This document shows positions 2,964 to 58,518 of a stretch of DNA of 64,000 bases, in pieces. Within the stretch, counting starts at the first letter, position 1, and each line of letters opens with the position of its first letter. Under the pieces are notes generated by a model. The model was not told the DNA's origin, made no database searches, and saw nothing but the letters and a program-made list of their open reading frames with translations. Source of the DNA: Thomasclavelia ramosa DSM 1402 (GTDB taxonomy: Bacteria > Bacillota_I > Bacilli_A > Erysipelotrichales > Coprobacillaceae); contig NZ_CP036346.1 in the NCBI RefSeq assembly GCF_014131695.1, forward strand, positions 1,426,001 through 1,490,000, in the 5' to 3' direction. Position numbers and translations under genes: made by a program.

Positions 2964-2984
2964 TTGGTAAATCGTTGAAAAAGA

Positions 2985-3178
2985 AAAGTACTATAAAATA
3001 GATCTTTCAGAGAAAGTATGGCTGGTGAAAATACTTATCATTTTATAGGAAAGCTACTTTGGAGAGTAATTAAAGATTACCGTGTAGGCTACGTTACCAG
3101 TCAAGTAAGGGCATGAGTTTTCATGAACTAGGATGGTACCGCGATTAAAGTCGTTCCTAGCAATAGGGCGACTTTTTA
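2985..3178 (+). promoter_or_regulatory. T-box leader of alaS (alanine-responsive)
   Basis: Stem I closes by AAAGT/ACTTT (2985 and 3056-3060) and a second helix TATAAAAT/ATTTTATA (2992-2999 with 3040-3047). An AGAGA motif and a distal hairpin with a GGCTGGTGAAA loop follow. A GCT triplet at 3053-3055, just before the closing helix, fits an alanine specifier. The T-box sequence AGGATGGTACCGCGA is at 3130-3144; its TGGT pairs with an ACCA tRNA end, as expected for tRNA-Ala. The terminator stem AAAGTCG/CGACTTT (3147-3153 with 3169-3175) ends in a T-run. Uncharged tRNA-Ala would stabilise the antiterminator and allow alaS transcription. Confidence 0.95.
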
Positions 3179-3197: not shown

Positions 3198-5807
3198 ATG
3201 AAACAATTAACAGGAAATCAAGTTAGAAAAATGTTTTTGGATTTTTTTGAAAGCAAAGGTCATAAAGTTGAACCTAGCCACTCATTAATTCCTAATGACG
3301 ATCCAACTTTATTATGGATCAATGCTGGAGTAGCAGCAATTAAAAAATATTTTGATGGAACAATAACTCCAGATAATCCACGAATTACAAATGCTCAAAA
3401 GTCAATTCGTACTAATGATATTGAAAACGTTGGAAAAACAGCTCGTCATCATACATTTTTTGAAATGTTAGGGAACTTCTCAATTGGTGATTATTTTAAA
3501 AAAGATGCAATTGATTTTGCGTGGGAATTATTAACTGATGAAAAATGGTTTGCTTTTGAAAAAGATAAATTATATATTACAGTTCATGATCATGATGAGG
3601 AAGCTTATGACTATTGGGTTAATGTCAAAGGTGTTGCTGTTGATCATATGTTAAAAACACCAGGTAACTTTTGGGAAATTGGCGAGGGACCATGTGGACC
3701 CGATTCAGAGATTTTTTATGATCGTGGGGAAAAATATGATCCTGATGGTTTAGGAACAAAGTTGTTTTATGAAGAATTAGAAAATGATCGATATATTGAA
3801 ATTTGGAATTTAGTATTTTCACAATATAACTCACAAGAAGGAGTAGCTCGTGAAGATTATAAAGAGTTGCCACAAAAAAATATCGATACTGGGATGGGAT
3901 TAGAAAGAATTACTAGTATTATTCAAGGTGGAGAAACAAATTTTGATACTGATTTTTTCTTACCAATTATCCATGAAGTAGAAAAATTAGCCAATGTTTC
4001 ATATCAAGAAAATAAGATGGCTTATCGAGTTATTGCTGATCATATCCGGACTGTAACATTTGCACTTGCTGATGGAGCATTATTTGATAATGCAGGTCGT
4101 GGATATGTTTTGAGGAGAATTTTAAGAAGAGCTGTTCGTTATGGTAAGCAAATTGGAATCGAAAAAGCGTTTATGTATGATTTAGTTGATGTTGTAAGCG
4201 AAATTATGAAAGAATTCTATGATTATCTACCAGAAAAAGTAAGTTATATTAGTGACTTAGTAAAAAAAGAGGAAGAAGCTTTTCATAAGACGTTAACAAA
4301 TGGTGAAAAATTATTAAGTAGTATTATCGCAAAAAATACTGATGGTGTGATTAGTGGAAAGGATGCCTTTAAATTATACGATACTTATGGTTTTCCTTTT
4401 GAATTGACTTTGGAAATTGCTGAAGAATCAGATTTAAAAGTTGATGAAGAGGCTTTTAGAGCAGAGCTTAAAGTACAACAAGAAAGATCGCGTGGAGCAC
4501 GTACTGATAGTGAAAGTATGGCAAGTCAGAAACCTGATTTAATGGCCTTTGATTTACCATCGAATTTTGAATATGATCCAACAAATATCAATAGTGTAGT
4601 TATTGGATTATTTAAAGATGGTGTTAAAACAGATCGAATTGATGATTATGGAGAAGTCATTTTTGATACAACAACTTTTTATGCTGAGATGGGTGGTCAA
4701 TGTGCAGATACTGGGTATGTTTATAATGAAAATTGTCAGGGTGAAGTAATTAATGTGCTAAAAGCACCAAATCAACAGCATTTACATTTCGTTAAATTGA
4801 AGACAGGAACGATTCGAGTTGGTGATATTTTAACTTTAGATGTTGATAAAGCTAAGCGAAATAAGATTATTGCTAACCATAGTGCTACTCATATTCTTCA
4901 AGCAGCTTTAAAAGAAATTATTGGAAAACATATTAATCAAGCTGGTTCTTATGTTGATGATCATCGTTTAAGATTTGATTTTACTCATTTTGAAAAAATA
5001 ACAAATGAACAACTTAAATTAATTGAGAATCAGGTTAATAATGTCATTTTTGATGGAGTTGCTGTGGATATTGCACACATGACTAAAGATGAAGCCATTA
5101 ATAGTGGTGCTATGGCGTTGTTTGATGAGAAGTATGGCGATAAGGTTCGGGTTGTTTCAATCGGTGATTATTCAATGGAATTATGTGGTGGATGTCATGT
5201 TTCAAACAGTGCAAATATTGGATTATTTAAAATTGAGGCTGAAGAGAGTGTTGGTAGTGGAGTGCGTCGAATTGAGGCGGTTACTGGAAAGACTGCTTAT
5301 CAAGCGTTAGTTCAAGAAAAAGAAACGGTTGATATTATTAGTAATATTTTAAAACTTAAAAATCGTAAAGAAGTAGTTGCAAAAGTTACTGCATTAACTG
5401 AAGAACTTTCCAACACTAAAAAAGAGATTGAAATATTAAGCGGACAATTAAATGCGCTAAATGCAGCAAGTAAAGCCAATGATATTCAAGAAATCAATGG
5501 AGTTAAAGTGTTGTTTGTAGAAGAAATGATTGATGCTGCTAAAGCGAAACAACTTGCCTTTGATTTTAGAGATAAAATTGAAGAAGGAATTGTAATTTTA
5601 GTAACACAATTTGAGGACAAATGTTCATACTTTGTCGGGGTGACTAAAAATTATGTTGCAACTGGATATAAAGCTGGTGATATTATTAAAAAAATCAATG
5701 CAGTTGTTGATGGTCGCGGTGGTGGAAAGCCGGATTTTGCTCAAGGTGGCTGCCCAATTAATGATAAGATTTCCAACATCAAGGGAGAACTTAAAAATTT
5801 CTTTTAA
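3198..5807 (+). CDS. alaS: alanyl-tRNA synthetase
   Basis: 869 residues, normal for bacterial AlaRS. The class II core begins with the family start (RKMFLDFFESKGH) and includes the conserved NAQKSIRTNDIENVGKT and FEMLGNFSIGDYF segments. The editing domain carries the zinc ligands HSATH (H561, H565) and ELCGGCH (C663, H667). The C-terminal DHHA1 domain ends in a Gly-rich GRGGGKPDFAQGG motif. It charges tRNA-Ala and clears Ser/Gly mischarging. Ribosome site AAAGGAG lies eight bases before the ATG. It is controlled by the T-box leader directly upstream. Confidence 0.98.
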   Translation: MKQLTGNQVRKMFLDFFESKGHKVEPSHSLIPNDDPTLLWINAGVAAIKKYFDGTITPDNPRITNAQKSIRTNDIENVGKTARHHTFFEMLGNFSIGDYFKKDAIDFAWELLTDEKWFAFEKDKLYITVHDHDEEAYDYWVNVKGVAVDHMLKTPGNFWEIGEGPCGPDSEIFYDRGEKYDPDGLGTKLFYEELENDRYIEIWNLVFSQYNSQEGVAREDYKELPQKNIDTGMGLERITSIIQGGETNFDTDFFLPIIHEVEKLANVSYQENKMAYRVIADHIRTVTFALADGALFDNAGRGYVLRRILRRAVRYGKQIGIEKAFMYDLVDVVSEIMKEFYDYLPEKVSYISDLVKKEEEAFHKTLTNGEKLLSSIIAKNTDGVISGKDAFKLYDTYGFPFELTLEIAEESDLKVDEEAFRAELKVQQERSRGARTDSESMASQKPDLMAFDLPSNFEYDPTNINSVVIGLFKDGVKTDRIDDYGEVIFDTTTFYAEMGGQCADTGYVYNENCQGEVINVLKAPNQQHLHFVKLKTGTIRVGDILTLDVDKAKRNKIIANHSATHILQAALKEIIGKHINQAGSYVDDHRLRFDFTHFEKITNEQLKLIENQVNNVIFDGVAVDIAHMTKDEAINSGAMALFDEKYGDKVRVVSIGDYSMELCGGCHVSNSANIGLFKIEAEESVGSGVRRIEAVTGKTAYQALVQEKETVDIISNILKLKNRKEVVAKVTALTEELSNTKKEIEILSGQLNALNAASKANDIQEINGVKVLFVEEMIDAAKAKQLAFDFRDKIEEGIVILVTQFEDKCSYFVGVTKNYVATGYKAGDIIKKINAVVDGRGGGKPDFAQGGCPINDKISNIKGELKNFF

Positions 5808-6954: not shown

Positions 6955-8046
6955 ATGGCTTTAATGGGATTATTTGGAAAAAAAAGAGTTACTGAATCAT
7001 TTTTTGTCAATTCATATGGAAATGATCAGACACGTGGTATTTATACATTTCAAGTAGATATTGAAAATGGAGAAATACTTTATAAAAAGCATTTTAAAAC
7101 ACCCTCAGACCCTGTCTATAGCTTTAATTATGGGCGCTTTGTGTGTGTTACATATAAAAATAGAACAGGTACAAGTGGTGATGGTGGAATTTGTTCATAT
7201 GCAGCAACTGCTGATATTTTAGCATTAGTATCGCGAATTAGTGATAAAGGTAAAACATATATGCATGCTTGTGCTAATGGTGATCATGAAACAGCAGATA
7301 AATTATATGCTGTTGATTATTATAACGGTGAGATCATGGTGGCAAAAATTGATAAGAAAAAACTAGTTGCACCTATTTTTAATTATAAATTGGAAGGACA
7401 TAGTATCGATCCAAAACGTCAAAATCAACCACACCCTCATTTTGTCGATTTTACTCCGGATGGAAAACGTTTAATTGTTGTTGACTTAGGATTAGATAAA
7501 GTACTGCTCTTTAAAATGGAAGCAAAGGAGATTATTTTGGATGAAGAACATTCATTTGATTTAGAACCAGGATCTGGACCTAAAAAGATTATGTTCAACC
7601 AGGCTGGAACAATAGCGTATGTTTTAAATGAATTATCTAATACAATTTGTGTTTACAAATATAATGATTTGAAATTTGAATTAATTCAAACCATCGATAC
7701 ATATCCAAAAGATGAATATGATGAGCCTAGCTTAGCTGGACAAATGCTTTTTAGCGAAAAAGAGGAGCGTATTTTTGTTACTAATCGTGGTCATGATAGT
7801 TTAGCATTATTTTTAGTAGATCAAGAAACAGGTTTATTGACTTATAAAGATTTTGTTGATACTTCACCAAATGCTCGTGATATTGCAATCTTTAAAGATC
7901 GTTGGATTGTTGCAGTTTGCCAAAAGGGTGGAGTAGTTGAAAGTTATGAATACCGCGATGAGAGAGGCGGAATGCTTTTTGAAACCAAATACTCATATCT
8001 AGTCAGTGAGCCGGTTTGCATTACAAAATTTGAGACTATTTATTAG
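6955..8046 (+). CDS. lactonase family seven-bladed beta-propeller protein
   Basis: 363 residues. The sequence matches the PF10282 lactonase/6-phosphogluconolactonase-like propeller: FVNSYG near the N-terminus, the signature HPHFVDFTPDGKRLIVVDLG in the middle, GSGPKKIMFNQAGTIAYVLNE, and SPNARDIAIF near the end. Members hydrolyse 6-phosphogluconolactone or other lactones, but many have no assigned substrate, and no other pentose-phosphate gene is nearby. There is no signal peptide, so it is cytoplasmic. It has its own ribosome site (AAGGTGG) and is followed at once by a terminator, so it may be a single-gene unit. Confidence 0.85.
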   Translation: MALMGLFGKKRVTESFFVNSYGNDQTRGIYTFQVDIENGEILYKKHFKTPSDPVYSFNYGRFVCVTYKNRTGTSGDGGICSYAATADILALVSRISDKGKTYMHACANGDHETADKLYAVDYYNGEIMVAKIDKKKLVAPIFNYKLEGHSIDPKRQNQPHPHFVDFTPDGKRLIVVDLGLDKVLLFKMEAKEIILDEEHSFDLEPGSGPKKIMFNQAGTIAYVLNELSNTICVYKYNDLKFELIQTIDTYPKDEYDEPSLAGQMLFSEKEERIFVTNRGHDSLALFLVDQETGLLTYKDFVDTSPNARDIAIFKDRWIVAVCQKGGVVESYEYRDERGGMLFETKYSYLVSEPVCITKFETIY

Positions 8047-8070
8047 AGATGATTATTCATCTCTTTTTTT
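8045..8070 (+). terminator. intrinsic terminator after the lactonase gene
   Basis: AGAGATGA and TCATCTCT pair around a four-base loop and are followed by T7. Confidence 0.88.
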
Positions 8071-8114
8071 GGCATAATATACTGACGAAGCATGTTTTAT
8101 TATCGGTAGATAAG

Positions 8115-8143
8115 TTGAATAAGCGCTAAAAATATCATATAAT
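8115..8143 (+). promoter_or_regulatory. promoter of the mltG-trmR-trhP1-trhP2-udk operon
   Basis: TTGAAT (8115-8120) and TATAAT (8138-8143) are 17 bp apart. The -10 box overlaps an in-frame ATG at 8142, which therefore cannot be the mltG start; the ATG at 8163 lies downstream of the expected transcription start. Confidence 0.75.
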
Positions 8144-8162
8144 GGTTAAGACGGAGGAGAAT

Positions 8163-9212
8163 ATGAAAAAAACTCAGAAAATTATTATTGGAGCAATTGC
8201 TGGAATAACGATTGTTGTACTAGCTTTAGTGTTTTTTTATTTCAATGGCCAAGGTGCTGTTTCTTCTAAAAGTGAAGAGGTAGTAGTTGAAATATCTGGA
8301 TCAACATCTTCGGTCTTAAATCAGCTTGATAAGGCAGGTCTATTAAAAAGCAAAACAGTTGCTAGTATCTATACAAAGTTTAATAGTTATAGTTTTAAAG
8401 CGAATGTTTATGTTTTAAATAAAAATATGGATTTAAAGAAGATTCTTACAATTTTGGAAGGAGATAAGGATTATATATCTGCTGCTAAAATTACGATATT
8501 AGATGGATACCGTATACCTGAATGTGCTCAACAAGTAGCAAAGGGATTAGAAATCGATAGTACCGAGGTATTAGAGAAATGGACAAATAAAGAATATTTG
8601 CAAACTTTAGTGGAAAAATACTGGTTTTTGGATGAAAGTATTTTGAGTGCTGATATTATGTTCCCGTTAGAAGGGTATTTTGGTCCAGAAACATATGTAA
8701 TTACTTCAAAGAAGACATCGATTGAAGATGTTACAAAGATGATGCTGGATCAAATGGATCGTAATTTAAGTACTTATAAAGACAAAATCAGTAATTTTAT
8801 GATTAGTGGTAATAAAGTATCGATGCATCAATTTTTATCATTAGCATCAGTTGTACAATGTGAGTCATCTGGCCAAAAAGAAGATCAGGCTAAGATAGCC
8901 GGTGTCTTTATGAATCGTTTGGAAAAACCAATGCGTCTGCAAAGTGATGTAACTGTAAATTATGCAAATCAAATTAAAACGGTAGCAGTAACGTATAATC
9001 ACTTATCAGTCGATTCTAAATATAATACATATAAGTATGAAGGGTTACCAGTCGGTCCAATCAGTACAGTTTCAACAAACATTATTGAAGCATGTCTGAA
9101 TTATCAAAAGACTGATAATTTGTTCTTCTTTGCTTTGAAAGACGGGTCAGTCATCTATTCAAAAACATATGAAGAACATCAACAAGTAGTAAAGGAAAAT
9201 AAATGGTATTAA
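8163..9212 (+). CDS. mltG: endolytic murein transglycosylase MltG
   Basis: 349 residues from the ATG at 8163, chosen because GGAGGA is four bases upstream and the earlier ATG falls in the -10 box. A basic N-terminus leads into one membrane segment (about residues 8-27), followed by an extracellular LysM-like and YceG/MltG domain. The catalytic region LASVVQCESSGQKEDQAK keeps the glutamate expected from the family pattern (VEKEx), although the first Glu is Gln here. KIAGVFMNRL, LQSDVTV and GLPVGPIS are further signatures. It cleaves nascent peptidoglycan and sets glycan strand length. It starts the conserved mltG-trmR-U32-U32-udk-greA order of Firmicutes. Confidence 0.93.
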   Translation: MKKTQKIIIGAIAGITIVVLALVFFYFNGQGAVSSKSEEVVVEISGSTSSVLNQLDKAGLLKSKTVASIYTKFNSYSFKANVYVLNKNMDLKKILTILEGDKDYISAAKITILDGYRIPECAQQVAKGLEIDSTEVLEKWTNKEYLQTLVEKYWFLDESILSADIMFPLEGYFGPETYVITSKKTSIEDVTKMMLDQMDRNLSTYKDKISNFMISGNKVSMHQFLSLASVVQCESSGQKEDQAKIAGVFMNRLEKPMRLQSDVTVNYANQIKTVAVTYNHLSVDSKYNTYKYEGLPVGPISTVSTNIIEACLNYQKTDNLFFFALKDGSVIYSKTYEEHQQVVKENKWY

Positions 9213-9213
9213 A

Positions 9214-9813
9214 ATGAGATATTATGAAAAAATAGAAGCTGATGCTTTAGCCCGAAATATACCTGTAATGCAGCGTGAAGGGCTTGAATTTATGATTGAA
9301 ATTTTTAAACATCATAATTGTCATTGTTGTTTAGAGATTGGTAGTGCGATTGGATATTCAGCAATGATGTTGGTAAGTAATATTAATAATTTTAAGGTTG
9401 AAACAATTGAATTAAATGAGGAACGATATTTAGAAGCTGTAAAAAATATTGAAGAAAATAATTTAAAAAGTCAAATCATTATTCATCATGGTGATGCTTT
9501 ATCATTTGATTTAGAGCATTTGAAAATTAAAAAATATGATTGTTTGTTTATTGATGCAGCTAAAGCACAATATCAAAAGTTTTTTGAAAAATATATGCCT
9601 TTAGTGGCAGACGAAGGTATTTGTATTGTTGATAATTTAGATTTTCATGGTATGATTTTTGATATTGATAATATAAAGAATCGAAATACAAAACAACTGG
9701 TAAAAAAAATAAAGCGTTTTAAAGATTGGATCTTTGATAACGAACTTTATGATGTTGAATATCATCATGTTGGTGATGGTATTTGTGTGATAAGAAAAAG
9801 GGTGGCACAATGA
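9214..9813 (+). CDS. trmR: tRNA 5-hydroxyuridine methyltransferase TrmR (O-methyltransferase family)
   Basis: 199 residues of a class I SAM-dependent O-methyltransferase: LEIGSAIGYSAMML is the SAM-binding motif I and CLFIDAAKAQYQKFF the metal/catalytic motif. In Bacillus subtilis the orthologue in the same gene order (YrrM/TrmR) methylates 5-hydroxyuridine at tRNA position 34 to give 5-methoxyuridine, acting after the U32-type proteins encoded next. The start is one base after the mltG stop, and its end overlaps trhP1 by ATGA, so translation is coupled. Assignment to TrmR rather than a generic O-methyltransferase rests on the context. Confidence 0.88.
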   Translation: MRYYEKIEADALARNIPVMQREGLEFMIEIFKHHNCHCCLEIGSAIGYSAMMLVSNINNFKVETIELNEERYLEAVKNIEENNLKSQIIIHHGDALSFDLEHLKIKKYDCLFIDAAKAQYQKFFEKYMPLVADEGICIVDNLDFHGMIFDIDNIKNRNTKQLVKKIKRFKDWIFDNELYDVEYHHVGDGICVIRKRVAQ

Positions 9814-10745
9814 AGTTAGTATTATCTTTAAATAGCAAAAAATTTATTTATGATTATGTGGATATTGGTGTTGAATATTTTGTCGTTGGGGCAAAGTATT
9901 TTTCATGTCGTCAAGCATTATCGCTTGAGTATGATGAAATCGCCAATTTAAAAAAGGTCCTAGGTGATAAAAAAGTATGGGTTTTAGTAAATGCACTAGT
10001 TGAAGAAAAATATATCGATTTCTTAGAAAAGCATTTAATTAGATTGAGTCAAATTGGAGTTGATGGAATTTTATTTCAAGATTTTGGTGTTTTACAGATT
10101 TGTAATGAGCATAATTTTGATTTTGAGATGATTTATCATCCAGATACATTAAATACTAATCAAGCAACTTTAAATTACTTGGGAACTCAAGGTATTAATG
10201 GTGCTTTTTTGGCACGGGAGATACCGCTTGAAGAAAAAAAAATAATTGCTAAAAATGTTAATGTTAAAACAATGATTCAAGTTCATGGTGTTGAATATAT
10301 GGCATATTCAAAAAGAAAGCTATTGACTAATTATTTTAAGGAAATCAATCAGGATATTCCAATTGGAATATCAGATGATCTGACGATTCAGGCAAATGGT
10401 GTAAATTATAGTTGTCATATTTATGAGGATCAATATGGATGTCATATTTTGAGTAAACAGCAAATGTGTGGCTTAGACATAATGAGTAGTTTTCAAGATT
10501 TTGATTACCTCTACATAGAATCTTTATACGTCGATGAATTAAAGTTAGTAGAAATCGTTAATTTATATCAAGATGCTTTAATCAGCGTTGGAAATAGAAC
10601 TTACGGAAAAGTCGCTAAGGAATTAATATCGCAACTTTATCAACTGGATCCAAATATCGAATATCATCATAGCTTTATGTTTGATGCAACTGTTTATAAG
10701 ATTGATGATGTAAGAAAGCGGGAAGAAAATGAGAAATGTAAGTAA
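9810..10745 (+). CDS. trhP1: peptidase U32 family protein, tRNA hydroxylation subunit TrhP1 (YrrN-like)
   Basis: 311 residues from the ATG at 9810, which follows an AGGGTGG ribosome site and overlaps the trmR stop (ATGA); the frame extends nine codons further upstream but without a ribosome site. It is the short U32 paralogue that lacks the four-cysteine cluster of its neighbour. In Bacillus, YrrN and YrrO together hydroxylate U34 of several tRNAs using prephenate-dependent chemistry. Its last codons overlap the start of the next gene by 17 bases. Confidence 0.86.
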   Translation: MKLVLSLNSKKFIYDYVDIGVEYFVVGAKYFSCRQALSLEYDEIANLKKVLGDKKVWVLVNALVEEKYIDFLEKHLIRLSQIGVDGILFQDFGVLQICNEHNFDFEMIYHPDTLNTNQATLNYLGTQGINGAFLAREIPLEEKKIIAKNVNVKTMIQVHGVEYMAYSKRKLLTNYFKEINQDIPIGISDDLTIQANGVNYSCHIYEDQYGCHILSKQQMCGLDIMSSFQDFDYLYIESLYVDELKLVEIVNLYQDALISVGNRTYGKVAKELISQLYQLDPNIEYHHSFMFDATVYKIDDVRKREENEKCK

Positions 10746-17179: not shown

Positions 17180-17440
17180 AAAAAGTCGCCCTCGATAGAG
17201 GACGACAAAGTCGCGGTACCACCCCAAGTTTATTATTAACTCACATTAATAATCTTCATAAGTGTAAAACTTTACTACGATAACGGCTAGCCACCGATGA
17301 TTACCTACTTATCAGTATCCGACTCCATGATGAATTCAATATTTCTTAACGTATTGTTCGCACCAACCACAATATCTCTGATATCTAAGTCATATTTACT
17401 ACTTCACTTCACTGTCTTTGTTTAATAGATTGTTACCTAA
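17180..17440 (-). promoter_or_regulatory. T-box leader of the ABC importer operon
   Basis: Read on the minus strand: the core T-box GGGGTGGTACCGCG lies around 17212-17225, followed by a terminator GTCGTCCTC/GAGGGCGAC (17185-17206) and T5. Upstream, stem I has the AGAGA motif and a distal hairpin TATTGT/ACAATA with loop GGTTGGTGCGA, closely parallel to the alaS leader in this window. The TGGT bulge pairs with a tRNA end having A at position 73. Specifier candidates are TTC (in GAATTCA) or, less well placed, ATC or TGG; the cognate amino acid is not settled. Confidence 0.93.
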
Positions 17441-36824: not shown

Positions 36825-36854
36825 AAAGGGTAGATGTTAAGTCTACCTTTTTTT
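36825..36854 (+). terminator. intrinsic terminator after htpG
   Basis: AAAGGGTAGA and TCTACCTTT pair across a short loop (one bulged G), followed by T5. Confidence 0.85.
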
Positions 36855-36858
36855 GTAC

Positions 36859-36883
36859 TATTTAGTAAAAAAATTACTAAATA
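36859..36883. promoter_or_regulatory. 10-bp palindrome upstream of the methyltransferase-GH3 operon
   Basis: TATTTAGTAA and its exact complement TTACTAAATA are separated by AAAAA. It lies about 25 bases before a TATAAT (36909-36914), where a -35 box is poor, which fits an operator for an unknown regulator. Confidence 0.6.
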
Positions 36884-36947
36884 CATTAAAAAATTGAGCG
36901 ATTATGTGTATAATAGACATATATGAAAATAGAGTGAGAGGGTATAT

Positions 36948-37514
36948 ATGTTAAATATTTGTGGGATTATTGCTTTTTTTATGATGTACATTTATGATTT
37001 GAATTTAATTTATTTAGGTAATAAAATTTTTAAAAAGTTTTTTGCGATTGGGTCAATAATATTAGTATTTGCTACTTTAGCGAATATTATTATTTATTTT
37101 CCTAAAAAAATAGATGCACACTTTATTATCTTTTTGGGACTTGCATTACTGGCAGCGATAGGGTTAATCTATACGTTATTTTTTGCGTTAAAATTTGATG
37201 ATGCATATAAAAATACTGAGAATAAACAGCCGTGTGTAAAAACCGGTGTCTATGCCTTATGTCGTCATCCGGGGGTGCACATGATGATTTTAATGTATTT
37301 ATGTTTATATCTAGCTTTTCAAAATGAAACTATGTTATTTATGTTGATTGGATTTAATCTATTAAATATTGGGTATGTGATTTTACAAGACATAATTATT
37401 TTCCCCAAGCAATTTGTTGATTACGATGAATATAAAAAAATAGTACCATTTCTTGTTCCAACAATTAAAAGTATTAGAAGCTGTATTAGAACATTTGGGG
37501 AGGTGTCAAAATGA
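36948..37514 (+). CDS. ICMT/PEMT-like integral membrane methyltransferase
   Basis: 188 residues with five hydrophobic helices. The segment TGVYALCRHPGVHMMILMY and the closing DYDEYKKIVPFLVPTIKSI fit the C-terminal signature of isoprenylcysteine carboxyl methyltransferase and phospholipid methyltransferase proteins (RHP motif, then Y-x-x-Y-x-x-x-V-P). The usual Glu before the last helix is not obvious, so activity is unproven. Its stop overlaps the GH3 gene by ATGA, suggesting a joint function, perhaps methylation of an acyl or lipid product. Confidence 0.72.
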   Translation: MLNICGIIAFFMMYIYDLNLIYLGNKIFKKFFAIGSIILVFATLANIIIYFPKKIDAHFIIFLGLALLAAIGLIYTLFFALKFDDAYKNTENKQPCVKTGVYALCRHPGVHMMILMYLCLYLAFQNETMLFMLIGFNLLNIGYVILQDIIIFPKQFVDYDEYKKIVPFLVPTIKSIRSCIRTFGEVSK

Positions 37515-39145
37515 AATTTGAGGATAAATTAAAAGCACGGAGTCGAGAAGATGTTTGGAATGAATACTGTGGCTTTTTAGATTTATCGATGGATGAATTT
37601 GTTCAGATTCAAAATCGTCTGATGGAAGAACAAATTGCCTTATGGTCACGAAGCCCATTAGGGAAAAAAATATTAAAAGGAAGTACACCAAAAAATATTA
37701 AGGAGTTTCGTGGACTAGTTCCATTAACTTCTTATGATGATTATGCTAGCGACTTATTACAAAAGAAAAGCGAACTTTTACCAGATGAACCGGTTTTATG
37801 GATCCAGACAACTTGGGAGGGTGGTAAACATCCCATCAAGGTGGCTCCTTATACTGAAAGTATGCTGGATACATTTAAACGAAATGTCTGTGCCTGTTTG
37901 TTATTGGGAACTTCAACAAAGCGAGGGGATTTTAAAGCCCGTTCGACAGATACGATTTTATATGGTCTAGCACCATTACCTTATGCAACAGGCTTGTTAC
38001 CATTAGCATTTGAAGAGGAAATCGGTATTGAATTTTTACCGCCTGTTAAGGATGCTGTGAAAATGAGTTTTTCAACTCGAAATAAAGTAGGATTTAAATT
38101 AGGATTGTCAAAGGGAATTGACTATTTTTTTGGTTTAGGAAGTGTAACTTATTATGTTAGTTTAAGTTTAGGAAAAATGAGTTCTGGTGGTGGCGGTGCT
38201 ATTTCTTTATTAAAAAAATCTCCATTACGTTTTGCTAAGATTGTATTAGCAAAATGCAAATGCATAAAAGAAGGACGTGAGTTAAAACCTAAAGATATTT
38301 TTAAATTAAAGGGATTTATGGTAGCAGGAACAGATAATGCTTGTTATAAGGATGATTTAGAAGAATTGTGGGGTATTCGTCCAATGGAAATATTTGCTGG
38401 AACGGAACCAACTTGTATAGGCACTGAGACGTGGAGCCGAAATGGATTATACTTTTTCCCTGATGCTTGTTTTTATGAGTTTATCCCAAGTGACGAAATG
38501 GAGAAAAATTTAGCTGATTCTAGTTATCAGCCTCGAACAGTATTGATAAATGAGGTTGAAGAAGGAATGAGTTATGAATTAGTAATATCTGTTTTAAAAG
38601 GCGGAGCCTTTATGCGTTATCGAGTAGGTGATATGTATCAGTGTATTGATCTTAAAAATAAAGATGAGAATATTAAATTACCGCGATTTAAATATCTCGA
38701 TCGGGTTCCAAATGTCATTGATATTGGCGGGTTTACAAGGATTACTGAAAATTCGATTGATCAAGTTGTCAAATTATCGGGACTTAAAATCACTAATTAT
38801 ATTGCTAAAAAAGAATTTAATCATAATAATCGTCCATATCTGCATCTATATGTTGAAATGGATCCACATGCTCAAATCACCCAAGCTATTTCAATTGAAA
38901 TACTAAGGGAACAATTAAGCATTTATTTTAAATATGTAGATCAAGATTATCAGGATTTAAAGAAAATTCTAGGTATCGATCCGTTAAAAATAACAATTAT
39001 AAAAGCTGGAACATTTGCCTATTATGAAAAAAATCATTCTCATAAAATTAAAAAAATTAATCCTCCAACTTTAGAAATTAATGAACTGTTAACGATTCAA
39101 GATCAGGATTATCGGGTTGAAATGGGAGGACGACTATATGAATAA
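37511..39145 (+). CDS. GH3-family (auxin-responsive type) acyl-adenylate amidosynthetase-like protein
   Basis: 544 residues with the GH3 family plan: an N-terminal helical region, FAGTEPTCIGTETW (the Y/F-x-x-SE-type nucleotide motif), LYFFPDACFYEFIPSDE, INEVEEGMSYELVISVLKGG and FMRYRVGDMYQCID, then RVPNVIDIGGFTRITENSID before the C-terminal lid. Plant GH3 enzymes adenylate a carboxylic acid and join it to an amino acid. Motif I, SGTTGGK in plants, reads TTWEGGKHPIKV here. Bacterial members have no well-known role. Overlapping ends tie it to the membrane methyltransferase upstream and the HD-GYP sensor downstream. Confidence 0.88.
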   Translation: MKFEDKLKARSREDVWNEYCGFLDLSMDEFVQIQNRLMEEQIALWSRSPLGKKILKGSTPKNIKEFRGLVPLTSYDDYASDLLQKKSELLPDEPVLWIQTTWEGGKHPIKVAPYTESMLDTFKRNVCACLLLGTSTKRGDFKARSTDTILYGLAPLPYATGLLPLAFEEEIGIEFLPPVKDAVKMSFSTRNKVGFKLGLSKGIDYFFGLGSVTYYVSLSLGKMSSGGGGAISLLKKSPLRFAKIVLAKCKCIKEGRELKPKDIFKLKGFMVAGTDNACYKDDLEELWGIRPMEIFAGTEPTCIGTETWSRNGLYFFPDACFYEFIPSDEMEKNLADSSYQPRTVLINEVEEGMSYELVISVLKGGAFMRYRVGDMYQCIDLKNKDENIKLPRFKYLDRVPNVIDIGGFTRITENSIDQVVKLSGLKITNYIAKKEFNHNNRPYLHLYVEMDPHAQITQAISIEILREQLSIYFKYVDQDYQDLKKILGIDPLKITIIKAGTFAYYEKNHSHKIKKINPPTLEINELLTIQDQDYRVEMGGRLYE

Positions 39146-41672
39146 TTATACATATGTCTCGATTATTGCGCTGTACTGTTATATATTTTTATTTATTTCA
39201 TTATCGGCTTCAAAGAAAACTAAGTTGATTAAAGCTTTTATGACATTGTTAATGGCGATGATGTTTTGGACTGGTGGTTCTTTCTTTATGCGTTCAATGT
39301 TTGGACCATCAGTCAAATTTTGGTATGATATTTCTTTATTGGGTTTATGTCTAGTACCATATGCGTTTATTAGTTTTGTCCATGAATTTTTATTTAATTC
39401 ACCTCATAAAAAAGATACTATTTGGTTCTTTCTTTTTGTCGGACTTTTCATTATTAATGCTACAACAGAACTCTTGCTGCCAGCACCTGAATATACAATA
39501 AGGGCTAGCGGGATTCCAGCATTTTATTATACTTCTAATGTTTATACGTATATTTTTTATTGTTTCTTTCTAGCAAGTATTATTTATTGTGTTTCGTTGA
39601 TCATAAAAGGCTTTAAAGAAAATCGTAATCAGGTGATCCGGCTAATGCCAATGTTTGCTGGGATTGCATGTTTAATATTTGGAAATACTTGTGTTATGTT
39701 GGGGTGGTTTGCTGGTTTTCCAATTGATATTGTTGCTGGGGTTATTAATGCAATATGTATGTTCTATACTTTGTATAAACGACGTTTATTTAGGCTTAAT
39801 CTTTTAGTTTCACGACGTAGCAGTTATGTAATAGCTGGAATGTTGTCAATTATTTTATTTGCTAATTTAGTTGGTACATTTCAAAATATTTTATTTGAAC
39901 ATTTTGGTTTGATTACTAAAAATTATTATGTATTAGTAATTGCAGTAGCTTTTACGATTGTAACTGCGATAATTTATACAATGTTAAAAAAATTTATTGA
40001 TGCAATTTTTATAAAAGAAGAAATTCAGCAATCAGATAGTTTAAAAGAGTTTTCTAACTATGTTTCAAAAACTTTGCAAGTAAATGAAATTGTCGGGGCA
40101 ATGGGTGAAATAATTTTGAAATGTGTCGAAACCAAACAAGTGTATATTTGTCTTTTAGATGACAATGGTGATTATTCAATTGAGTACAGCAGTTCACCGT
40201 TAAGAAAAAATAACTATATTATTAATCATGAAAATCCTGTGGTGATTAAATTAATGAATAACGATGATATGATATTTTATAGTGAATTTAGACATTCAAT
40301 AAATTATCGTTCAATGTGGGACAGTGAGAAACAATTATTTGAAAATCTAAATATTGAAGGAATTATCCCAGTTAAACAAGAGCAATTAATTGGGATGATC
40401 CTGCTGGCTCCCAAACCACGGCGCTCGGGGTATAGTTATGGAGAAATTAGTTTCTTGTCTTCAGTTGCTTCAATTAGTGCCATTGCTTTAATTAATTCAA
40501 AAATGTATGAGACAGTTTATAATGAAGCACGTAGTGATGAATTAACTGGACTGTTGAATCGTAAATATTTTTATGAGGCTTTGAATAATGAATATGAAAA
40601 ATTGGGAGAACGCCAATTATCATTGATTTTAGTAAGTGTAGATGATGTTCGGCTTTATAATCAATTGTATGGTAATAAAGAAGGAGATATTGTCTTAATT
40701 AATGTAGCACGAATTATGGATGATTATGTAAATACACAAGGTTATACAGCACGTTTAGGGGGAAAGGAATTTGGGATTATTTTACCAAATTATGGACCTT
40801 TAGAAGCAAAAGATCTGGCCGAAAACATTCGCGAGCAAATAATGAATATGAATAAACGAGATAGTGACTATACTTTAAAAGTAGTTACTGCAAGCTTTGG
40901 TATTAGTTCTATTCCGGTATCTGCCAATACAATTAAACAATTATTAGATTATGCAGATCAAGCGCTATATCAGTCAAAGCGACATGGTAAAAATCGTGTA
41001 TCAGTTTATAATGCAGGAGTGGTTGAAAGTACAAGTGGTGTGACGATTGTTGATGCACATCGAGAAAAACAGAATATTTACTTAGAGTATGCGCCGACAA
41101 TTTATGCATTGACAGCTGCAATTGATGCAAAAGACCATTATACTTTTACCCATTCTGAAAATGTTGCTTATTATGCTACAAAATTAGCAATCGGATGTGG
41201 ATATGATAGTGAATTAGTCGAGATTATTAATGAAGCTGCACTTCTTCATGATATTGGTAAAATTGGGATTTCAGAAAATATTTTAAAGAAAACTTCTAAA
41301 TTAAGTGATGAAGAATACCAAATTATGCAATCGCATGTGGAAGCTTCAGTTAATATTATTCGACATTTACCTTCATTGGACTACGTTATTCCAATTGTCT
41401 TAACACATCACGAACGTTATGATGGGCGTGGATATCCAAGAAGAATTTCTGGTGAAGATATCCCGGCCGGAGGAAGAATTATGGCAATAGCGGATTCTTT
41501 TGATGCAATGACTTCAAGAAGGAGTTATAAAGAACCATATTCATTAGAGTATGCTCTTAATGAATTAAAGCGTAATCGGGGATTGCAATTTGATCCCGAT
41601 TTAGTTGATAAGTTTATTGAACTGATAAATTCTGGTATAATTGAAGTAAGAGGTAATCAAAATAATGAGTAA
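39138..41672 (+). CDS. 7TM-GAF-GGDEF(degenerate)-HD-GYP sensor, likely c-di-GMP phosphodiesterase
   Basis: 844 residues from the ATG at 39138, seven bases after GGGAGGA, overlapping the GH3 gene by eight bases. Seven to eight membrane helices (residues ~1-215, histidine kinase 7TM type) and one more helix near 230 and 265 precede a GAF domain (~310-450) and a GGDEF domain (~465-625). The GGDEF signature is GGKEF (541-545), so cyclase activity is probably lost. The HD-GYP domain has HDIGKIG (H704, D705) and HHERYDGRGYP (757-767), all conserved, which predicts c-di-GMP hydrolysis. It probably senses a ligand linked to the upstream enzymes. Confidence 0.93.
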   Translation: MNNYTYVSIIALYCYIFLFISLSASKKTKLIKAFMTLLMAMMFWTGGSFFMRSMFGPSVKFWYDISLLGLCLVPYAFISFVHEFLFNSPHKKDTIWFFLFVGLFIINATTELLLPAPEYTIRASGIPAFYYTSNVYTYIFYCFFLASIIYCVSLIIKGFKENRNQVIRLMPMFAGIACLIFGNTCVMLGWFAGFPIDIVAGVINAICMFYTLYKRRLFRLNLLVSRRSSYVIAGMLSIILFANLVGTFQNILFEHFGLITKNYYVLVIAVAFTIVTAIIYTMLKKFIDAIFIKEEIQQSDSLKEFSNYVSKTLQVNEIVGAMGEIILKCVETKQVYICLLDDNGDYSIEYSSSPLRKNNYIINHENPVVIKLMNNDDMIFYSEFRHSINYRSMWDSEKQLFENLNIEGIIPVKQEQLIGMILLAPKPRRSGYSYGEISFLSSVASISAIALINSKMYETVYNEARSDELTGLLNRKYFYEALNNEYEKLGERQLSLILVSVDDVRLYNQLYGNKEGDIVLINVARIMDDYVNTQGYTARLGGKEFGIILPNYGPLEAKDLAENIREQIMNMNKRDSDYTLKVVTASFGISSIPVSANTIKQLLDYADQALYQSKRHGKNRVSVYNAGVVESTSGVTIVDAHREKQNIYLEYAPTIYALTAAIDAKDHYTFTHSENVAYYATKLAIGCGYDSELVEIINEAALLHDIGKIGISENILKKTSKLSDEEYQIMQSHVEASVNIIRHLPSLDYVIPIVLTHHERYDGRGYPRRISGEDIPAGGRIMAIADSFDAMTSRRSYKEPYSLEYALNELKRNRGLQFDPDLVDKFIELINSGIIEVRGNQNNE

Positions 41673-41684
41673 GGAGGAAAAATA

Positions 41685-42221
41685 ATGTCATTAGACCAAA
41701 TTATTAAGCAGCGCCGAAGTATTAGAAAATATAAAAAGAAGCCTGTTTCTAACGAGCAGATACAATTGCTTATTCAAGCAGCAGTCGAAGCACCATCTTG
41801 GAAAAATAGTCAAACAGCTCGATATCATGTTATTACATCACAACCTTTATTGAATGAGTTTAAAGAGAGATGTTTACCGGAGTTTAATCAAGAAAATTGT
41901 AAAGATGCACCGGTTTTAATAGTAACATCTTTCATTCCAAATCGCTCAGGATTTGAACGTGATGGAACGCCTAGTAACGAACTGGCAAATGGCTGGGGCT
42001 GTTATGATCTTGGACTTCACAATCAAAATATTCTTTTAAAAGCGACAGAATTAGGATTAGGATCATTGGTCATGGGGATTCGCGATATTGATAAAATCAA
42101 GGGATTGTTAGATATTTCTAAAGAAGAAATAATTGTTTCAGTTATTGCTATAGGTATTAGTGATATTGAGCCAGAACGGCCTAAACGTAAAACGGTTGAG
42201 GATATTACAAGATTTTATTAA
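41685..42221 (+). CDS. nitroreductase family protein
   Basis: 178 residues of the FMN-dependent NADH oxidase/nitroreductase fold: IIKQRRSIRKYKKKPVSNEQ and AAVEAPSWKNSQTARYHVI bind FMN, and LKATELGLGSLVMGIRD follows in the middle. Members reduce nitro groups, quinones or flavin, and the physiological substrate is usually unknown. AAGGAGG precedes the ATG 12 bases after the HD-GYP gene, so it may be the last gene of that operon. A terminator follows. Confidence 0.92.
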   Translation: MSLDQIIKQRRSIRKYKKKPVSNEQIQLLIQAAVEAPSWKNSQTARYHVITSQPLLNEFKERCLPEFNQENCKDAPVLIVTSFIPNRSGFERDGTPSNELANGWGCYDLGLHNQNILLKATELGLGSLVMGIRDIDKIKGLLDISKEEIIVSVIAIGISDIEPERPKRKTVEDITRFY

Positions 42222-55943: not shown

Positions 55944-58518
55944 ATGCGTAGAAAATTATTTTTAATTGTTCTAACTACGTCACTATTGTTATCTAGTATT
56001 ATTTCGATTTATGTAATTCATAATCTTCAAGGAAATGCCAGAGTTATCAATTATACTGGTGTTGTTCGTGGTGCAACGCAACGATTGATCAAACAAGAAT
56101 TAAGTAATAAGCCAAATGACAAATTAGTGAAAAAAAATAGATGATATTATTGATGAACTACAAACTGGACATGGTGAACTTGGTTTGATTCGTTTAGCTT
56201 CTGATGATTTCCAAGAAAATATGACTCAAATGAAATTTGATTGGGAGGGGTTAAAAAAAGAAATTTATTTGGTTCGAGAAGGCAGAGATAATGGGAATTT
56301 ATATTTTTATAGTGAAGCCTTTTTTGAGTTGGCAGATAATACGGTACATTCTACGGAATTGTATTCTGAAAAGAGCGTGTATTCAGCAGAAGGAACATTA
56401 ATAATTTTGAATCTAGCGTTAGCAATACTAGTGTTTTTTATTTATAAGTATAATACTAAACAAGAAAAAATACGAAAAAAATTAGAGAAAGAGGAAGAAA
56501 ATAATAAACAACGTAAAGTATAACTTGCAAGACTGGCTGAAAACATGCGCGCTCCCTTAAATGATATTTCTGAACTTTTATATATTGTTGACTTAGAAAC
56601 TTATGATTTATTATTTATTAATGAAACCGGAATGAAAATATTTGAGGTTGATTCAATCTATGGAAAAAATGTTATAAAGTCTTACAAGGAAGAGATGCGC
56701 CTTGTAATTTTGTACTAACTGCTATTTGAAAGAAGAGGAAAATTATACTTGAGAATTTACTAATCCGCTAACTAAACGGCATTACCTGTTAAAAGATCGT
56801 TTAATTGAGTGGGATGGTAAGGTTGCAAGAATGGAAATTGCTTTTGATACTACAGAATCTGAGATAGAAAAACAGCAGTTAAAATTTACACTTGAGGCTG
56901 AAAAAACGATTACAGAATGTATTGGTATATTATATCGTGAAAATGGCGTTAGTACTGCAATTATTGAAGTGTTGAGAAAGCTTGGGAATTTTTTATCAGC
57001 AGAAAGAACATACATAATCTATATTAAAGATGAACTAATGTATAATGACTATGAATGGTGTGCGGAAAATATTATATCACAAAAAAACACCCTACAAGGA
57101 ATTCCTCTTGCAATGATTGATCGGTGGATTCCTTATTTTAAAAATGATAAATGTGTAATCATTGAAAATTTAGAAGAAATAAAAGAAATTTCATTGGAAG
57201 AATATGAAATACTAGACAGTCAGTCAATAACTAGCTTAGTGTAGCTCCGTTGGAACAAAATGGCGAACTGGCAGGTTATTTAGGAGTTGATAATCCACCT
57301 CCAGATAAAATTATTAATATTGCTTCATTGCTTCAAACATTATGTTATTTCGTTTCATTAGCATTACAACATGCAGAGAGTCAAAAAAAATTATCATATT
57401 TGAGTTATCATGATAATTCAACGACCTTTTATAATCGTAATCGTTATATTAAAGATACTCAAAAACTTTTTAATATGGATACTTCATTGGGAATTATTTA
57501 TTTAGATGTAAATGGTTTAAAAGATGTAAATGATCAATTTGGACACGAAGTTGGTGACGCATTATTGGTTGAATGTGCTAGACGTATGAAAATGGTATTT
57601 AAAAAAGCTGATTTTTATCGTATTGGTGGGGATGAATTTATTATTATTTGTCAAAGCATAAAAAAAGAGTCATTTGAAAAACGAGTTAAAGAATTAAGTG
57701 AAAGTTTTTCTAAAAAACCAGTTTGTCAAGTAGCGATAGGAACACAATGGACTAATGCAGTAGGTAATATTAATGAGATGATTGCTGAGGCAGATGCAAG
57801 GATGTATGAAAATAAAAAAGAATTTTATCATAAGCATATGATTTCCAGACGGTATCGTCACCATAGCGATGAGATGCTGCATCTCACTAATATTGATTAT
57901 CTAGAATCTGAGATTGAAAACGGTCATTTTGTTGTCTATCTACAACCTAAAATTTTATGTGAAGATCGCTCATGTGTTGGGGCAGAAGCATTGATACGTT
58001 ACTGTGATAATGCTGGGACATTAATTCCGCTTTCAATAAATTTTTCTATAGAATCACTTCGTGGTAAATCTTTTGTTGAACGTATTTTAGAAACTTGTAA
58101 AAAATATCAAATACCTACTAAATATATAGAAATAGAAATAACAGAACGAGTACATGACGAAAAGAATTTTGAAATTAAAACGGTAATATCAAAACTTCGT
58201 AGTGCTGGATTTATTGTAGCTATTGATGATTTTGGAACGGAGTATGCCAATTTAGCATTATTATCGGATGCTGAGTTTGATATTCTAAAATTGGATAAGA
58301 GCTTAATTAGTAATGTTGCATTAAATCCAAGAACTAAGATAATCATGGAATATATTTCAAAAATTTGTCATCGATTAGGGCTGGATATGATAGCGGAAGG
58401 AATTGAATCTGAAGAGCAGTTTTTTACGCTGTGTTCATATGGGGTTGAAACAGTTCAAGGTTATTTATTCAGCAAGCCGTTGGCAATAAATGTTTTTGAA
58501 GAAAAGTATCTAAGTTAA
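55944..58518 (+). pseudogene. decayed membrane sensor with PAS, GAF, GGDEF and EAL domains
   Basis: The start (GGGAGGA, ATG 55944) gives an N-terminal membrane helix and a PilJ-like sensor part. Breaks follow: an extra A in an A-run near 56132; TAA at 56521 (Gln expected); shifts near 56670 and 56715; TGA at 56750 (Trp expected, NYT-stop-EFTNPL); and a shift near 57241. Between them PAS (IVDLETYDLLFINETG), Cys-rich RDAPCNFCTNC, GAF, an intact GGDEF (YRIGGDEFIII) and EAL (GAEALIRYCD) domains can be read. The EAL part also lacks about 45 residues after GTLIP. The parts from 57250 to 58518 remain open but lack a start. Confidence 0.85.

Follow-up and report, generated by a model that had tools for sequence, protein, structure and literature searches.

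The closest described counterparts of the gene set reported here each share part of its make-up. Signalling by RpfF, RpfC and RpfG (diffusible signal factor, DSF) ties a fatty-acid signal to an HD-GYP phosphodiesterase that acts on cyclic di-GMP (c-di-GMP). In the PhcBSR quorum-sensing operon of Ralstonia, a methyltransferase producing a fatty-acid methyl ester is encoded next to its sensor (PMC8578825), and OlsH, OlsG and OlsI are encoded by an ornithine-lipid operon of Singulisphaera acidiphila (PMC12493201). The stretch analyzed here, 64,000 nucleotides from Thomasclavelia ramosa DSM 1402 (NZ_CP036346.1, positions 1,426,001 to 1,490,000; hereafter the window), comes from a genome consisting of a single contig of 3.25 Mb and carries three overlapping genes on its forward strand, encoding an ICMT-like membrane protein, a GH3-like protein and a seven-transmembrane (7TM) receptor with an HD-GYP domain. 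This trio is a real and widespread gene set and is undescribed in the literature searched. The original prediction, made from the sequence alone, had likewise remarked that no system of such make-up was described, and our literature search, whose coverage of subscription papers was thin, found no paper on the gene set.

On the reading proposed below, the trio resembles the Rpf system in combining a fatty-acid signal with HD-GYP output, whereas the Rpf synthase is a different one and sensing and HD-GYP output are split between proteins. Methyltransferase and sensor genes within one operon are the feature shared with PhcBSR, PhcB being likened to the ICMT-like protein by description only; PhcBSR contains no GH3-like protein and its sensor is a histidine kinase rather than an HD-GYP protein. 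The Ols operon is similar in that a bacterial GH3-like protein shares an operon with a methyltransferase and in its fatty-acid chemistry, but it has no receptor, OlsH has a TSGTT P-loop, and the trio lacks an OlsI partner. The prediction had started from the view that GH3 enzymes are known mainly from plants, which no longer holds: GH3 proteins occur widely in bacteria, and one of them, OlsH, makes N-acyl-ornithine (PMC12493201).

Conservation and loss of the trio

The open reading frames are located at 36948-37514 (ICMT-like, 188 aa), 37511-39145 (GH3-like, 544 aa) and 39138-41672 (receptor, 844 aa, ATG start), the first two sharing 4 bases and the last two 8. Order and strand are retained in 105 of 106 loci from about a hundred bacteria (Erysipelotrichales, other Bacillota, and Clostridia), and the single exception is truncated by a contig end. 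Scanning contigs for the GH3-like protein yielded 80 loci, mainly in Clostridia and some in Erysipelotrichia, which together with the window and three genomes of its family make 84 loci. The HD-GYP gene lies directly downstream of the GH3-like gene in all 84 and the ICMT-like gene directly upstream in 83; in the remaining locus the GH3-like gene starts 96 bases from the contig end. Distant members with scores down to a few hundred bits were added (9 from Bacillota, 6 from Clostridia, and 7 from the phylum of a metagenome-assembled genome titled 'Fusobacteria', L067), and all 22 carry the trio in identical order. The gene junctions overlap in many loci, while the flanking genes vary between them. 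These data bear out strongly the earlier expectation that the genes would stay neighbours in relatives, and the arrangement is far beyond chance.

The same pattern was found in genome-wide counts. The GH3-like subfamily is present in 12 of 392 Bacillota genomes, with one further weak and unlike match, and the ICMT-like subfamily (>100 bits) occurs in exactly the same 12 genomes, adjacent to the GH3-like gene every time. The N-terminal part of the receptor was found in those 12 and in two more (G028 and G257), both without the enzymes. Among 391 genomes of the class Clostridia, 7 have a GH3-like protein of the subfamily above 600 bits and the trio is present in all 7, including G418, the holder of locus L012. 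As a control, 14 other GH3 genes of Clostridia (12 regions) have no ICMT-like or HD-GYP neighbour; one of these regions, L155, contains a weak match to the receptor model some 6 kb off. Tandem pairs of ordinary-type GH3 genes with a TSG loop, which are unrelated to the trio, were noted in Clostridia and Acetobacterium (L155:7048-8742 and 8746-10476; L156:6254-7984 and 8016-9803; G420:C20:263801-265662).

At the sequence level, the two enzyme genes are present together and lost together, and receptors occur without them. Enzyme genes without the receptor were not observed in any of the genomes examined, and the receptor is found without the enzymes in four genomes (G028, G034, G257, and G039). 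G034 and G028, of the same family, and G257, of the same class, have the receptor alone with its HD-GYP residues retained. The congener G039 has an intact 849-aa receptor, an ICMT-like gene with many stops, and a GH3-like gene of which most is deleted. The ratio of nonsynonymous to synonymous substitution rates between its receptor and the window copy is about 0.1, a value that partly reflects the time preceding enzyme loss. In another congener, G041, the corresponding site between htpG and a nitroreductase gene holds remnants of the trio. The decaying trios of the two congeners were located at L162:2407-5811 and L161:5300-6400, one with the receptor only and the other with remnants only. Receptor 'solos' also occur in other signalling systems. 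Since the enzymes are never found without the receptor and receptors are found without the enzymes, the pattern is the one expected of a receiver and the two enzymes that make its signal.

Features of the three proteins

The receptor (39138-41672, + strand) has a 7TM-(GAF-like)-GGDEF-HD-GYP architecture. Pfam clearly detected HisKA_7TM, GGDEF and HD_5, the HisKA_7TM sensor region covering residues 9-220 (39162-39797, +). The HD-GYP domain (41118-41603, +) has intact HD and HHExxDGxGYP residues, which are invariant in the receptor alignment and kept in the receptor-only genomes too. The GGDEF site reads GGKEF in the window, with the lysine nearly invariant in the family, and thus deviates from the cyclase motif GG[DE]EF. 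Because the HD-GYP residues are intact and the GGDEF site is degenerate, the receptor should degrade c-di-GMP and not make it; the predicted active site agrees with the label of HD-GYP phosphodiesterase given earlier. With 39 GGDEF matches, the host genome has a large c-di-GMP network. A further GGDEF protein (422 aa) is encoded in the window at 57250-58518 (match at G000:C1:1483406-1483822). Divergence of the 7TM region tracks that of the GH3-like protein (partial r 0.37) and of the ICMT-like protein (0.24), which is weak evidence, and no such relation to ICMT-like divergence is seen for the GAF-like and GGDEF parts.

The GH3-like protein (37511-39145, +) represents a separate subfamily of the GH3/ANL fold as judged by sequence, here designated 'TTW', with a rewritten but conserved site. 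Pfam GH3_M (7e-14) and GH3_C were above the cut-off, while the N-terminal GH3 domain scored 21.6 bits against a cut-off of 23.6. The fold extends over the full length of the AlphaFold model (pLDDT 87), and VIA-align Z values against plant GH3 proteins were 27-29. Plant acyl acid amido synthetases (for example 4epl, 5kod, and 9fwd) align with Z of about 28 over 475-493 residues and share motifs II and III, whereas identity is 15-16% and the P-loop and C-terminal lysine differ; PaaK-type enzymes scored like the plant proteins. Motif II (xxTE; GTE, residues 297-299, 38399-38407, +) and motif III (RYRxGD; GGAFMRYRVGD, residues 364-374, 38600-38632, +) correspond to those of GH3 proteins, the context of the latter being GGAFxRYRxGD in place of the SG[FL]YRYRxGD of ordinary Clostridia GH3 genes. 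Motif I departs from the expected [ST]SG[ST]-x-G-K type. The P-loop is altered to TTWEGGKHPIK (residues 100-110, 37808-37840, +), replacing TSGT.G..K, and the window clade has TTW[EKR]GG....K versus TSG[TS]xG..K in the ordinary genes. The A8-like stretch is GFTRIT versus EKT[ST]E in the latter, and the C-terminal lysine of the GH3 motif NQxKxPR is lost; an (I/M)NP region stands in its place and nearby basic residues are variable. The most distant trio members have TSG[KR]xG-type P-loops that look intermediate.

The alignment of 52 GH3-like sequences contains 104 invariant columns, including the motif II Glu, the motif III Arg/Asp, and A8-like residues. The active site is both altered and strongly constrained and has therefore not simply decayed. 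A catalytically dead protein was not accepted, in view of this high conservation and the TSG-type loop kept by distant trio members. Identity with OlsH (NF052613) was rejected because the window protein scored 14.1 bits against a curated cut-off of 620, missing the family by a wide margin. Of the earlier designation as a GH3 acyl-adenylating enzyme, the GH3-like fold and several conserved positions hold, whereas the rewritten P-loop and the missing C-terminal lysine do not fit it; adenylation of an acid is plausible from the remaining motifs.

The ICMT/PEMT-like protein (36948-37514, +) is an integral membrane protein predicted with several membrane helices and modelled with confidence (pLDDT 95). 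Pfam PEMT scored 22.3 bits against a cut-off of 25, and both PEMT and ICMT were below their cut-offs. The protein aligns with generic ICMT/PEMT-type proteins of related genomes through GxYxxxRHP (RHPG, residues 106-109, 37263-37274, +) and a C-terminal YxxY. As in ICMT/PEMT proteins, R and H of the former motif are invariant in the family, with P and G nearly so; the acidic EE/ED pair before YxxY is changed to QD/QE, with the second acid retained. The earlier label of ICMT-like methyltransferase fits these motifs but receives no decision from the fold, since ICMT (9.7/9.0), steroid 5-alpha-reductase (9.0), and sterol reductase (8.6) tie. The motifs favour a methyltransferase over a reductase.

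Upstream DNA and neighbouring genes

In nine loci the trio is directly preceded by a same-strand gene of the DegV family; these genes belong to three DegV subfamilies. The first group comprises five loci of one GH3 clade with gaps of 1 to 81 bases; the second, two Hungatella loci where an unlike DegV gene overlaps the start of the ICMT-like gene by 4 bases; and the third, two loci with another DegV type 147-211 bases away. Two of the three groups are mostly 1-3 bases from the trio or overlapping it, while elsewhere in the trio flanks DegV accounts for 2 of about 900 genes. FakB proteins of the DegV family bind fatty acids (PMC12288450, PMC9136124). The NCBIfam FakB1 matches of the neighbours were well under the equivalog cut-off, and 'FakB-like' accordingly denotes family resemblance. 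By analogy, a fatty acid is the leading guess for the substrate of the GH3-like protein because of these neighbours and because OlsH, a GH3-like enzyme, is known to use free fatty acids. Except for DegV in this minority of loci, no recurrent fourth gene was found in the flanks, and ABC-type ATPases recur there at scattered positions only.

A terminator-like hairpin (36825-36851, +) closes the upstream htpG transcript and marks the boundary of the unit. It is followed by a perfect 10-bp inverted repeat with a 5-bp spacer, TATTTAGTAA-N5-TTACTAAATA (36859-36883), a candidate operator directly 5' of a -35-like box. The palindrome and the gene overlaps of the earlier description were both reproduced from the repeat search and the open reading frame coordinates. 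No second such site was found in the window, where chance would yield 0.04 at a tolerance of up to 3 mismatches. A search upstream of the trio in relatives did not find the palindrome, and its reading as an ancient operator was rejected. The promoter-like TTAAAA-17-TATAAT (36886-36914, +) matches the consensus at 10 of 12 positions, such matches as a class being no more frequent than in shuffled sequence. No known RNA family was detected near the operon in the window scan; two T-box leaders above the Rfam gathering score are located at 2966-3161 (+) and 17195-17421 (-). Among six relatives scanned, c-di-GMP-I riboswitches were found in the flank of L012, away from the trio itself. Three aptamers (677-770, 3324-3413, and 3558-3651, the last two close together) lie upstream of the trio there and neighbour a gene encoding a 1642-aa protein.

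A small nitroreductase-family gene (41685-42221) begins 12 bases past the receptor. Its candidacy as a fourth member was rejected; it is a local neighbour, because it keeps its chromosomal place in congeners with a decayed trio and is absent beside the trio in the other loci examined. A few Oscillospiraceae-type loci encode proteins of 1060-1111 aa that end 11-26 bases 5' of the ICMT-like gene (L032:6135-9383, L040:6220-9402, and L084:6065-9400), with a receptor/GGDEF-like match in L032 and L040.

Proposed function and competing explanations

The explanation we prefer, at somewhat less than even confidence, is a self-contained unit of synthase, tailoring enzyme and receptor that feeds c-di-GMP breakdown. 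As we infer it, the GH3-like protein would activate a fatty acid, or less probably another carboxylic acid, and join it to an amine or other acceptor, and the ICMT/PEMT-like protein would tailor this product in the membrane, probably by methylation. The lipophilic product, made by the cell itself or its neighbours, would be the ligand detected by the 7TM receptor and would set the phosphodiesterase activity of its HD-GYP domain, and with it the direction of the c-di-GMP response. The proposal made earlier, that a made or modified acyl compound is linked to c-di-GMP, gains from the receptor-only genomes, the joint loss of the enzymes, and the DegV/FakB-like neighbours.

Several observations weigh against this unit. 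Active GH3 enzymes have a different P-loop and keep the C-terminal lysine, which leaves adenylation uncertain, and a threonine occupies the motif I position where OlsH has an essential serine (PMC12493201). Receptor-only genomes could mean that the receptor has a job of its own. The divergence of the HD-GYP domain follows that of the ICMT-like protein too (partial r 0.22), and the co-variation is therefore not specific to the sensor. A dedicated exporter is not conserved in the unit, and DegV is present in a minority of loci, one of its three groups being 147-211 bases off.

The main rival, unlikely but to be taken seriously, is a membrane-lipid pathway with a built-in regulator and no diffusible signal, where a methylated amino lipid would be the joint product of the GH3-like and ICMT-like proteins and the HD-GYP protein would read the membrane state or time lipid synthesis. 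OlsH, whose gene lies in one operon with that of the N-methyltransferase OlsG and which uses free fatty acid to produce N-acyl-ornithine (PMC12493201), is a precedent, and the FakB-like neighbours fit. However, neither an OlsI-like acyltransferase nor another third enzyme is conserved in the unit, OlsH family scores are 14 to 27 bits against 620, and a plain lipid pathway has no need of a fixed receptor partner. Less probable still is that the two proteins are now non-catalytic sensing or tuning parts of an HD-GYP receptor complex. The rewritten P-loop, the lost lysine and the fixed trio of overlapping genes would suit such parts, but the 104 invariant columns with the motif II, motif III and A8-like residues, the TSG[KR]-type P-loops in distant members with the same trio, the conserved RHP and QD/QE residues of the ICMT-like protein, and the persistence of receptors in genomes without both proteins argue against this reading.

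Handling of an outside acid (an aromatic acid, auxin-like compound or host fatty acid), which the enzymes would conjugate and inactivate while the receptor senses the free acid, is improbable: plant GH3 enzymes conjugate hormones and the fold matches include both PaaK-type and plant GH3 enzymes, but no catabolic or transport genes recur beside the trio, and enzymes of this kind should turn up without a fixed receptor as well, which is never the case here. That unrelated neighbours were joined by chance, local synteny or simple shared descent is negligible and ruled out by an order kept across classes amid changing flanks and by control GH3 genes without partners, common ancestry applying to close relatives and nothing more.

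If the GH3-like protein of the preferred synthase-tailoring-receptor unit is an enzyme, its subfamily with an altered P-loop would widen the known ANL chemistry. Networks of c-di-GMP are large in many bacteria, and for most of their membrane sensors no ligand is known. The trio combines a sensor with two enzymes that may produce its ligand. Cultured gut species, Hungatella and Coprococcus comes among them, carry it, and a comparison of metabolites between cells that have and lack the two genes should therefore reveal the ligand. Tentatively, and with less confidence than for the unit itself, the trio may represent a hitherto undescribed kind of chemical communication among gut Firmicutes and other anaerobes of the phylum: a rewritten-loop GH3-derived enzyme and a membrane methyltransferase would make a fatty-acid-derived signal, a dedicated 7TM receptor coupled directly to c-di-GMP breakdown would read it, and some species would only listen.

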